Origin: Bdellovibrio sp.
Lineage (GTDB): Bacteria > Myxococcota > SpSt-1050
Direction of reading: 5' to 3'
NCBI GenBank assembly: GCA_020725805.1
Contig: DYEF01000082.1
Coordinates: forward strand, 1-7,648
DNA: 7,648 bases
Numbering within the stretch: the first letter of the stretch is position 1; every line of letters begins with the position of its first letter. Both the position numbers and the translations under genes were made by a program. Below are positions 3,777 through 7,525 of the stretch, piece by piece. The notes beneath the pieces were generated by a model that worked only from the letters and a program-made list of their open reading frames with translations, made no database searches and had not been told where the DNA came from.

Positions 3777-4757
3777 ATGAGTCTGCCGCGCTATCTGTAT
3801 CTCACCATTACAAGAGAGTGCAATCTCAGATGTCAGCAGTGTCACTTCTGGACATATAAAGACCCTGAAGACAAACTAAGTATAGGTGAATTTAAGGATG
3901 TAATCGACCAGTTTTGCGAGCTTAATCCCAATGGAATAGTTGTAATCAACGGCGGGGAACCTACTATTCACAGAGATGAGTTCTTTGAAATCTCCCGCTA
4001 CATAAGAGAAAAAAGACTAAAGTCTGCCTGCGTTACAAACGGATACCGTTTTGACGATGAGACCTCAGGAAGGCTTATTACAGATGGACCAACATATATT
4101 ACCGTCTCGCTCGACAGCCATCTGCCTGATATCCATAATAGGCTTAGGGGTAGAGAGGACGCCTTTGAGAAGACACTGGATACAATAAAAAAACTAGTTA
4201 GTATCAATAAATTATCGTCGGATTCAACGACTGAAATTACAGTTACAACCATTATCTTCGATGAAAACATCAGGTATCTCTCTGAGTACATAGAATTTGT
4301 CCGTTCTCTCGGTGTGCGCGGTGTCCTCTTTCAGATTATTAATCCGACATTTGCAATGGTATCAAAGGAGGATAGGTTTTTTAATGAACACTTCTTTAGA
4401 GAGAAAGAAGAAGCAATACAGCAAATAGAATCAGTCTATGAAAAATATAAAAATGACCCGTTCGTCTTTCTCTCAAGAAGTGATGTTGAGTGGTTCGTAA
4501 GTTATATAAGAAATCCGGAATTTACCGGTGAGGCAGTCTGTGACTCACACAATAAGAATATTTTTTTGGAACTCACGGGCGATATCGTCCTCTGTGCCCA
4601 TATGCGAAACTTCAACAACGGTAACGCAATCGGCAATGTCAGGAGAGAAAAGCTGAAAGATATTCTTAACTCCGATATAGCAGAGAAGATGCGAAGTATT
4701 ATGGCAAAGTGCAGAAAGAACTGCGGCCTCCTCACCTGCCATAAGAAAGAAGGGTAA
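3777..4757 (+). CDS. Radical SAM protein with SPASM/twitch-like Cys-rich C-terminus
   Basis: This 326-residue protein starts almost directly with the radical SAM cluster motif: C15, C19 and C22 (CNLRCQQCHFW). It is followed by the SAM-binding NGGEPT (58-63), VTNGYRF (86-92) and a VSLDS strand (110-114). This core binds a [4Fe-4S] cluster and cleaves SAM to a 5'-deoxyadenosyl radical. The C-terminal part carries C255, C273, C312, C316 and C321, with GDIVLCAH and GNVRREKLKDIL spaced as in SPASM/twitch auxiliary-cluster domains, which are common in peptide- and sugar-modifying enzymes. The substrate is unknown and no obvious precursor peptide is adjacent. An in-frame stop at 3762 and the first cluster cysteine at codon 15 leave ATG 3777 as the only reasonable start. 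It has no Shine-Dalgarno at normal spacing (AAAGGA at 3754-3758 region is about 18 bases away). It is divergent from punA. Confidence 0.88.
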   Translation: MSLPRYLYLTITRECNLRCQQCHFWTYKDPEDKLSIGEFKDVIDQFCELNPNGIVVINGGEPTIHRDEFFEISRYIREKRLKSACVTNGYRFDDETSGRLITDGPTYITVSLDSHLPDIHNRLRGREDAFEKTLDTIKKLVSINKLSSDSTTEITVTTIIFDENIRYLSEYIEFVRSLGVRGVLFQIINPTFAMVSKEDRFFNEHFFREKEEAIQQIESVYEKYKNDPFVFLSRSDVEWFVSYIRNPEFTGEAVCDSHNKNIFLELTGDIVLCAHMRNFNNGNAIGNVRREKLKDILNSDIAEKMRSIMAKCRKNCGLLTCHKKEG

Positions 4758-4788
4758 TTTCAATCAGTCGGGTGCGTAAGTATATTAT

Positions 4789-4819
4789 AGTCCACAGTCC
4801 ATAGTCCACAGACCACAGT
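4789..4819. repeat. 7-bp tandem repeat array (unit AGTCCAC, four copies)
   Basis: Consecutive units begin at 4789, 4796, 4803 and 4810: AGTCCAC, AGTCCAT, AGTCCAC, AGACCAC, followed by a partial AGT. Two single-base variants break perfect identity, so the array is not a very recent expansion. It starts 32 bp after the radical SAM stop codon. No function is evident; slippage or replication-associated expansion is the simplest explanation. Confidence 0.85.
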
Positions 4820-4824
4820 TATTT

Positions 4825-4850
4825 AGTGCTGAAGACTGAAGTGCTGAAGG
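4825..4850. repeat. 8-bp repeat array, first copy (AGTGCTGA units)
   Basis: AGTGCTGA (4825-4832), the shortened AGACTGA (4833-4839) and AGTGCTGA (4840-4847) are followed by AGG and then TGATA. The second array at 4989-5013 ends with the same AGTGCTGAAGG followed by CGATA. The two arrays bracket the hairpin cluster in the same orientation, so the whole 4825-5020 block behaves like a compound repeat unit. Confidence 0.75.
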
Positions 4851-4865
4851 TGATAGGACTATTAA

Positions 4866-4899
4866 GGTGGCTGAGTAGCTTTAGCGTATCGAAGCCACC
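4866..4899. repeat. Covarying palindrome, copy 1
   Basis: The outer stem is GGTGGC (4866-4871) paired with GCCACC (4894-4899), 6 bp perfect. Inside are the constant sides TGAGTAG (4872-4878) and TATCGAA (4887-4893) with a small apical GC/GC pairing around TTTA. Copies 2 and 3 share the two constant sides but have different stems. It resembles REP-like intergenic palindromes; whether it acts as terminator, mobile unit or protein site is unknown. Confidence 0.8.
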
Positions 4900-4907
4900 G
4901 CCAAGAT

Positions 4908-4942
4908 GGACATTTCGATAAGGCTTCGCCTACTCAATGTCC
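4908..4942. repeat. Covarying palindrome, copy 2 (inverted)
   Basis: The outer stem GGACATT (4908-4914) pairs perfectly with AATGTCC (4936-4942) over 7 bp. An apical stem AGGC (4921-4924) pairs with GCCT (4928-4931) around TTC. Read on the minus strand it contains the same TGAGTAG and TATCGAA sides as copy 1, so it belongs to the same family in opposite orientation, with a completely different outer stem that is still fully paired. Confidence 0.8.
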
Positions 4943-4954
4943 TTTTAATACCAA

Positions 4955-4987
4955 GGTCGCTGAGTAATTGAGTGTACCGAAGCGATG
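4955..4987. repeat. Covarying palindrome, copy 3
   Basis: The stem GGTCGC (4955-4960) pairs with GCGATG (4982-4987) by four Watson-Crick pairs plus one G-T, the outermost pair being lost. The sides TGAGTAA (4961-4967) and TACCGAA (4975-4981) correspond to the constant sides of copies 1 and 2 with one change each. It is the most decayed copy and has the same orientation as copy 1. Confidence 0.7.
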
Positions 4988-4988
4988 T

Positions 4989-5015
4989 AGAGCTGAAGAG
5001 CTGAAGTGCTGAAGG
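4989..5015. repeat. 8-bp repeat array, second copy (AGAGCTGA units)
   Basis: Units AGAGCTGA (4989-4996), AGAGCTGA (4997-5004) and AGTGCTGA (5005-5012) are followed by AGG and CGATA. It matches the array at 4825-4850 in unit, length and flank, and starts directly after hairpin copy 3. Confidence 0.75.
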
Positions 5016-5105
5016 CGATATTATGGGAGAACTTTTTAGGATTTTAAAACTTATGGGCATTTTAAGAGAGAATAAAAATTTTTCTGCATTCTTTTTTGAA
5101 TTCTG

Positions 5106-5111
5106 TATAAT
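5106..5111 (+). promoter_or_regulatory. Candidate -10 box (TATAAT) upstream of the HExxH gene
   Basis: A perfect TATAAT preceded directly by TG lies 128 bp before ATG 5240. No good -35 stands at 17 bp (TCTGCA at 5083-5088). If used, the transcript would have a leader of about 120 bases. The surroundings are AT-rich, so a chance match is possible. Confidence 0.3.
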
Positions 5112-5239
5112 TAATTTTGTAAACATCAGTGCCGGGGGTATTGATGTATGAGATAAGAAATTTCAGTTCTCACACCTATCTATCTATCGTGTAGTTTATC
5201 CAAAAATCAGAAAACTAAGAATAAACTTTGGAGGAATTT

Positions 5240-6190
5240 ATGAGAGGATATTTTAGTGTTTTTATACTCTCGTTTTTATTTGTCTCAATTGCAATTTTGT
5301 CAGGATATAAGAGTGAGTCTTCATCTACTGGTTGTAATTCTCCACCTGAAATCGTAGTCTTAAAACCATCTGAAAATGATAACATCGAAAATCCACCAGT
5401 ATCTGTTGAGTTTACAGCAATTCAGAACAGCACAGACCTGACTTCTATTGATTTAAGTAAAGTAACTGCTATAATCAGGGATAATATGAATAAGACAATA
5501 TATACATTTTCGGAGACGTATGAGAACAAGGTAACATTTACAGGTCTACCATTGAACAATAATGATTTTGGAGTAAAGAGGGTATACCTTGATGTAAGAG
5601 GTTTTAATTATTTTTACAATATGGCTCTTGATAATATTTGGGTGAAGATATTTTTCCCCAAAGAGGCAAAAAATCATCCATATCCATCAGGCTCACAACC
5701 AAATACACCAAATTGGTATTTCTATTGGGGACAGGATGTTCCTGCTCCTTCAACTTTGACAAGGAGGGAGTATAATCCAAATAGTGCCAGTGCAAATGAT
5801 GAGATTGGTTATTGGTATCCAACACTTAATGGCTGGACGTATATAATAATCTATGACGGATGTAAAAGTAGCAGGAGGGAAGGATGGACAGATTACCATG
5901 CTTGTACAGCTGTGATGGCGCATGAGAATAAGCATGAAGAAGATTTCAGACAGGTTGTTTGGGGAGGTGAGCCGTTTGACCCTAATAAAGATCAGGATAA
6001 AAATTTTCTAAGAGATGAGTGGGAGTCTGACTCTAATAATTTTTATATATTTGCTGGATGTGTTGATTCTTATACTAGGTACAATGTTTGTTATAAAAGG
6101 TGGGCAGAAACAAGAGCAGCGGATATAGAGGAAAACTACCCTGATAAATCATCAACAAATGACTGGTTAAGCCCTGGGTCAAATTATTAA
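5240..6190 (+). CDS. Exported protein with Ig-like N-terminal region and HExxH (zinc metallopeptidase-like) motif
   Basis: I do not recognise this 316-residue protein as a named family. Residues 1-22 are a basic start plus hydrophobic core typical of a signal peptide; there is no clear lipobox. Residues 34-110 (PPEIVVLKPSEND...) look like a beta-rich Ig/Big-type domain. The C-terminal half contains H228-E-N-K-H232, an HExxH zinc motif. An acidic stretch follows at 247-262 (DPNKDQDKNFLRDEWE) like a calcium-binding TSP3/EF-type loop, then WAETRAADIEE at 288-298, where E290 could be the third ligand of a gluzincin. Five cysteines (32, 208, 222, 274, 284) are compatible with disulfides outside the cytoplasm. 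The frame can be read from TTG 5228, but GGAGG at 5230-5234 stands 5 bases before ATG 5240, which decides the start. It is followed after 20 bp by another exported protein. Peptidase activity is inference. Confidence 0.72.
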   Translation: MRGYFSVFILSFLFVSIAILSGYKSESSSTGCNSPPEIVVLKPSENDNIENPPVSVEFTAIQNSTDLTSIDLSKVTAIIRDNMNKTIYTFSETYENKVTFTGLPLNNNDFGVKRVYLDVRGFNYFYNMALDNIWVKIFFPKEAKNHPYPSGSQPNTPNWYFYWGQDVPAPSTLTRREYNPNSASANDEIGYWYPTLNGWTYIIIYDGCKSSRREGWTDYHACTAVMAHENKHEEDFRQVVWGGEPFDPNKDQDKNFLRDEWESDSNNFYIFAGCVDSYTRYNVCYKRWAETRAADIEENYPDKSSTNDWLSPGSNY

Positions 6191-7224: not shown

Positions 7225-7525
7225 AAGTCTAATCAGAGAGATAACATCGAAAATCCATCTGTATCAGTTGAGTTTACAGCAATCCAGAATAGCATTGACC
7301 TGACTTTTATTGATTTAAGTAAAGTTACTGCTATAATCAGGGATAATATGAATAAGGCAATATATACATTTGCGGAGGTGTGTATATATAAAAAGTTTCA
7401 CAAGGACAAATGGCTTGAGTGGTGGCCAAAGGGATACAATCCTCTGGAAGATCAAGATAATGATAGAGTACCAGATTATTGGGAATTAGCAAATGGACTT
7501 AGTATAGATTGTTGTTCCAAAATAG
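7225..7525 (+). pseudogene. 5'-truncated mosaic relative of the HExxH gene, interrupted at its 3' side
   Basis: Bases 7240-7377 match 5378-5515 with 11 differences in 138 (about 92%), covering codons 47-92 of the gene at 5240 in the same frame. Homology stops sharply, and the frame continues into a C-terminal piece that is only distantly related to the first gene: a single H, then WLEWWPKGYNPLEDQDNDRVPDYWE, aligning with the acidic loop and DEWE of the first protein. The Ig-like remainder, the HExxH and most of the central domain are absent. A TAA at 7222-7224 precedes it and no start or ribosome-binding site is seen before an internal ATG at 7348. The frame stays open to the window edge, but from about 7526 it reads through IS-like end repeats. 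This is most likely a non-functional recombinant remnant. Confidence 0.75.
7240..7377 (+). repeat. Direct repeat of 5378-5515
   Basis: This 138-bp segment matches the sequence 1862 bp upstream without gaps (about 92% by hand count). It encodes part of the Ig-like region. Several differences are silent, but others change residues (for example P to S and T to I), so the copies have diverged for some time. Confidence 0.93.

Follow-up and report, generated by a model that had tools for sequence, protein, structure and literature searches.

A hairpin repeat family with a constant internal loop and covarying stems, REP-like in layout, in a Bdellovibrio sp. genome and across bacterial phyla

Hairpin cassette and flanking repeats

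The window, meaning the whole stretch of 7,648 nucleotides that was analysed, is one entire contig (C79) of a 3.29 Mb draft genome. An intergenic cassette of three hairpins lies between a radical-SAM gene at 3777-4757 (assigned with Pfam) and a frame at 5228-6190, for which no Pfam match was found. The hairpin cores were located at 4872-4893 (+), 4914-4936 (-) and 4961-4981 (+), in agreement with an earlier note that had described three palindromes with constant sides at this place, the second of them inverted. The pattern TGAGTA-n(1-26)-TAYCGAA occurs three times in the window against 0.01 expected, and three or more occurrences were obtained in 0/200 shuffles. Hairpin A (4866-4899, + strand) consists of the outer arms GGTGGC (4866-4871) and GCCACC (4894-4899), the constant sides TGAGTA (4872-4877) and TATCGAA (4887-4893) and an apical GC/GC stem. 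It is separated by a spacer of 8 nt (4900-4907) from the inverted hairpin B (4908-4942, - strand), with arms GGACAT/ATGTCC, sides TGAGTA and TTATCGAA and an apical GGC/GCC stem, and a further spacer of 12 nt (4943-4954) leads to hairpin C (4955-4987, + strand), with arms GGTCGC/GCGATG, sides TGAGTA and GTACCGAA and a weak apical stem. Two of the three were said to pair perfectly, and this holds: the outer arms of A and of B form 6/6 pairs, and those of C form four Watson-Crick pairs followed by G.T and G.G.

The three hairpins are flanked by an AGTCCAC array and two AGNGCTGA arrays. The AGTCCAC array (period 7, 4.4 copies, 4789-4819, +), which is also present near most other cassettes, and the left AGTGCTGA array (period 8, 3.2 copies, 4825-4849, +) precede the cassette, and the 3' end of hairpin C adjoins the right AGAGCTGA array (period 8, 3.2 copies, 4989-5014, +); the two period-8 arrays are the matching, identically oriented arrays that had been reported to bracket the cluster. 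In the host genome, arrays accompany many but not all hairpin copies and also occur without hairpins, as at four loci (L035-L038) that match the query in the array part only and contain no hairpin core. The arrays are therefore treated as a separate repeat that shares the intergenic space. Several host contigs end within or beside hairpin cassettes. Two further repeats were observed in the window: the segment 5380-5520, within the 5228-6190 gene, recurs in diverged and broken form at 7243-7385 near the contig end, which looks like a partial gene duplication, and AAATGTAACATTT-type repeats are found near both contig ends (85-125 and 7525-7562), as if both stopped in the same mobile element.

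Copies, distribution and stem covariation

A pattern search of the host genome returned 67 cores, compared with 1 for the reversed control; some few of these matches have no stems and probably arose by chance. A lack of further copies, or unpaired stems in them, had been named in the earlier note as what would count against its reading; the copies are plentiful and their stems mostly paired. At least four stem subfamilies are present (GGTGGC, GGACAT, GGGCGT/GGACGT and GGTCGC), with complementary partner arms in most distinct copies and, in some variants, pairing maintained through G.T. The units are arranged in the order A(+)-8 nt-B/D(-)-12 nt-C(+), sister cassettes carrying type D (GGGCGT) in the place of hairpin B, and longer cassettes follow the order A-B-A-B-C. 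Every pair keeps a set spacing, with core-to-core distances of 20-21 nt in 16/16 +/- pairs (the A-B spacer) and of 24-25 nt in 12/12 -/+ pairs (the B-C spacer).

Among 195 genomes of the host phylum, enrichment was detected in this genome only, so that the distribution is very patchy; the same-genus species gave 3 matches against 5 for the control, with no enrichment. In the sister species, the orthologue of the neighbouring gene (73% identity) has no hairpin after it and is followed by other genes, a break in synteny that leaves no exact empty-site junction. An exact search of GTDB genomes, in which the outer arms were left free, gave matches in Treponema, Anaerolineales, Bacteroidota, Herbaspirillum, Herminiimonas, Gulosibacter, Salinibacterium, Dependentiae, Ignavibacteria and others. 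Whole-genome counts of copies and controls were 321/3 (the maximum copy number in a genome) and 197/9 in Anaerolineales, 201/3 in a Herbaspirillum MAG, 107/6 in Treponema, 74/0 in Gulosibacter and 16/1 in Dependentiae; some Bacteroidota carriers lie near their controls, and a match alone is thus no proof of the family there. A sister form, TGAGC-nnn-GTCGAA, with the foot CCGCTC, occurs 135 times against 3 for the control in a relative (G079), sister-form hairpins having been seen at L098-L129 of that genome and at L090, L091 and L094. Palindromes resembling TGAGC...GTCGAA are common in environmental genomes; no publication containing such strings was found. Ten stretches of viral contigs (L337-L346), which may be prophages or misassigned host DNA, contain the exact core TGAGTAGCGNAGCGTAYCGAA. 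Gulosibacter units were also observed head to tail, with a period of ~30-36 nt and arms in common (GGCGTTCCC; L380 6285-6370 and 8261-8380; L369 2920-3010), an arrangement that may reveal the exact unit ends.

The earlier note had also claimed that the stems covary around a fixed internal loop, and this was borne out in the host genome and across phyla, the outer and the apical stems both pairing beyond shuffles. In 231 hairpins picked by the apical stem alone, blind to the outer stem, outer pairs 1-3 were Watson-Crick in 220/231, 212/231 and 180/231 cases, whereas shuffled partners gave 114, 101 and 85 such cases on average and at most 133, 122 and 102; related copies among them do not represent independent events. 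When each combination of genome and 5' arm was counted once, giving 77 units, the exact complement was the commonest 3' arm in 47/77 (shuffle mean 7.8, maximum 16; 13 different arms). Conversely, in hairpins picked by the outer stem alone, apical pairs 1-5 exceeded every shuffle, the inner-stem register counting the G that precedes TAYCGAA. Gulosibacter apical stems are of many lengths and sequences, and a test confined to Gulosibacter places pairs 1 and 2 beyond shuffles. The stem of the Treponema zioleckii copies is invariant, which makes the covariation test uninformative there.

Internal loop, gene position and possible mode of spread

The geometry that we infer for the loop comprises a T-A pair, two tandem G.A pairs (G.A, A.G), a G-C pair, a pyrimidine left outside the helix and a TA/TA step, which together would make the loop compact; it stays conditional because folding programs choose a different register for some of the loop. 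The putative extrahelical position is T in 192 cases and C in 24, and the base preceding TAYCGAA is G in 201/216. Nested tandem modules are of the GA/GA kind in 23 cases and of the TC/TC kind in none, indicating that the TGAG strand is the folded strand. The view that a constant loop with covarying stems marks a structured DNA or RNA recognition element is supported in the genome and across phyla; as to the active form, the evidence leans towards single-stranded DNA rather than RNA.

A search was made for a gene that could mobilise the units. The linked TnpA_REP (Y1) transposase envisaged in the earlier note did not materialise, as no hairpin-flanked one was found in the host, ten relatives or 28 carrier genomes. 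In an all-against-all comparison of 595 ORFs, no gene family recurred as a hairpin neighbour in more than 3 genomes, the only two clusters comprising 3 genomes each at scattered distances from the hairpins; no IS body was found between copies. The Y1 loci L146 and L150 of one relative (G070) carry two weaker TGAGCCTGTCGAA hairpins of the sister TGAGC type.

The stems vary freely and one odd unpaired loop is constant, which suggests recognition of the loop by a protein that copies the hairpins or makes use of them. On the basis of the observed copies, layout, covariation, patchy spread and gene position, we consider it probable that these are REP-like single-strand hairpin repeats recognised through their internal loop by a putative enzyme. 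Each unit would be a hairpin that folds in the TGAG strand once the DNA is single-stranded, built from an outer stem, the internal loop TGAGTA / (G)TAYCGAA and an apical stem-loop, with the loop serving as the mark read by the putative protein. As the stems would need only to pair, they could diverge into subfamilies through compensatory changes, and an enzyme recognising the folded strand might mobilise or multiply single units as well as inverted pairs, in the way that TnpA_REP acts on REPs; such mobility is suggested by the copies. A more far-reaching version, which we entertain as a tentative possibility, is that of a multi-phylum REP superfamily with the loop TGAG/(Y)CGAA, propagated by a putative non-Y1 enzyme whose target in single-stranded DNA would be a loop of tandem G.A pairs with its pyrimidine flipped out.

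Ordinary REPs could show this layout and size, this position at 3' ends and this patchiness if a TnpA_REP (RAYT) mobilised them in trans, the transposase being distant, lost or situated in assembly gaps, and a Y1 gene is indeed present in 20/28 carriers and at a contig end in the host. However, 8/28 carriers have none, among them Gulosibacter with its 74 hairpins against 0 for the control; at 29/30 Y1 loci of carrier genomes the motif is absent for about 1.5 kb around, and the remaining locus has a single weak match; and the only Y1_Tnp frame of the host is cut off by the contig end and has no N-terminal part, whereas the hairpin-free sister species (G001) possesses an intact Y1 look-alike of 230 aa (loci L039 1471-1926, at the end of C60, and L133 from 37). 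The GT[AG]G foot is also absent from the host copies, whose feet are TATTAAGG, TACTAAGG, GCACAAGG or similar, and mobilisation in trans is accordingly rated as rather unlikely. We are similarly doubtful that the hairpins are RNA elements, transcribed at 3' ends, that stabilise, process or terminate transcripts and have been spread by selection. Such a role would suit the position relative to gene 3' ends, which was checked as the earlier note had proposed: between-gene copies across genomes number 50 in convergent against 18 in divergent settings, gene calls being crude, the genomes draft and many GC-rich copies lying inside predicted frames. It would also suit the strand asymmetry, the strong RNA folds given by folding programs and the excess of G.T over A.C among stem mismatches (14 against 4 over distinct arm pairs), although this wobble asymmetry reaches only p 0.03 without duplicates and is reversed in G079, and is therefore not relied on. 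Against it, tandem gene pairs show no clear orientation bias (41 sense, 27 antisense, p 0.11), no intrinsic terminator (GC-rich stem plus T-run) was found in 4700-5250, and Rfam gave nothing at the gathering score save a tRNA elsewhere, the best cassette match being at chance level; moreover, inverted units within one cassette are not needed by RNA, and multiplication together with flanking spacers requires a DNA process.

Quasipalindrome correction, that is, template switching during replication, would keep arms complementary without selection on structure, and neutral palindromes maintained in this way would need no recognition at all. Yet the same correction would erase the mismatched loop, and TGAGTA/TAYCGAA is constant across phyla as both stems change, which renders this account very improbable. 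Equally little credit is given to double-stranded protein-binding sites, where a protein would read the constant words in duplex form and the stems would be incidental: the words are fixed in sequence, but the distance between them differs greatly among copies, and stem covariation persists nonetheless. Taken together, the evidence on Y1 genes, RNA and palindrome repair favours the REP-like single-strand element.

Comparison with known repeats

The ends of IS200/IS605 elements are single-strand hairpins in which an extrahelical base is read by a protein. Units of the window family would share this build; they differ in being more numerous, shorter and mosaic, with no IS body found between copies. 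In the literature, no paper was found with TTCGACAAGCTCAG or related consensus strings, shorter strings giving primers; a CRISPR spacer match to the consensus-string search was unrelated. TnpA_Y1 genes belonging to subclass 2.6 and class 3 are flanked by atypical non-GTAG multicopy hairpins (PMC6006769); the present hairpins are likewise non-GTAG and multicopy, but were not found beside Y1 genes.

GTAG REPs, BIMEs and REPINs consist of small, imperfectly paired hairpins that contain internal mismatches, reach high copy numbers and alternate in orientation with set spacers; GTAG REPs are located at gene 3' ends, spread patchily and fall into subfamilies whose stems carry complementary changes (PMC3733652, PMC6006769). 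The window family resembles them in all these respects, namely hairpin size, internal mismatches, copy number, orientation, spacers, 3'-end position, patchiness and complementary stem changes. Alternating orientation with set spacers, as in BIMEs and REPINs, is present in the host genome, and the 67 cores with their 50 convergent against 18 divergent positions agree with REPs in the wide sense, which are of high copy number and lie mainly at gene 3' ends. The family departs from GTAG REPs in having no GT[AG]G foot and no linked Y1 gene flanked by repeats (30 Y1 loci, 28 carriers), and in being defined across phyla by a constant internal loop. The likeness to REPs drawn in the earlier note consequently stands for layout and gene position, and falls away for the link to TnpA_REP.

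CGTC REPs have a terminal CGTC (or TGTC, CCTC) tag, A-T pairs at the first two positions of the stem, a CCA tail, plain stems of 8-9 bp and loops of 4-5 nt, and they are found across phyla, mostly as inverted dimers, without a linked transposase (PMC3733652). The window family shares with them the cross-phylum occurrence, the inverted dimers and the lack of a linked transposase in the genomes searched; its copies in the window differ in having no CGTC tag, A-T foot pairs or CCA tail and in stems that begin with G-C pairs, and CGTC REPs as described have no TGAG/CGAA loop. In copies from Gulosibacter, Dependentiae and Herbaspirillum the stem is preceded by CGNTC or GGTC, apparently a variant form of the CGTC tag, so that, judged by sequence likeness, kinship of the hairpin family with CGTC REPs is possible.

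Some REPs, those of the CGTC type, have no known transposase (PMC3733652). A family with fixed loop and free stems in Y1-free isolates, such as Gulosibacter chungangensis, offers a bait for the putative recognising protein, in the form of the folded strand with a closed-loop control and the reverse strand. On the favoured reading the hairpins work like REPs and BIMEs, outside the features that define GTAG and CGTC REPs, and they carry a loop signature by which such repeats can be traced across phyla.
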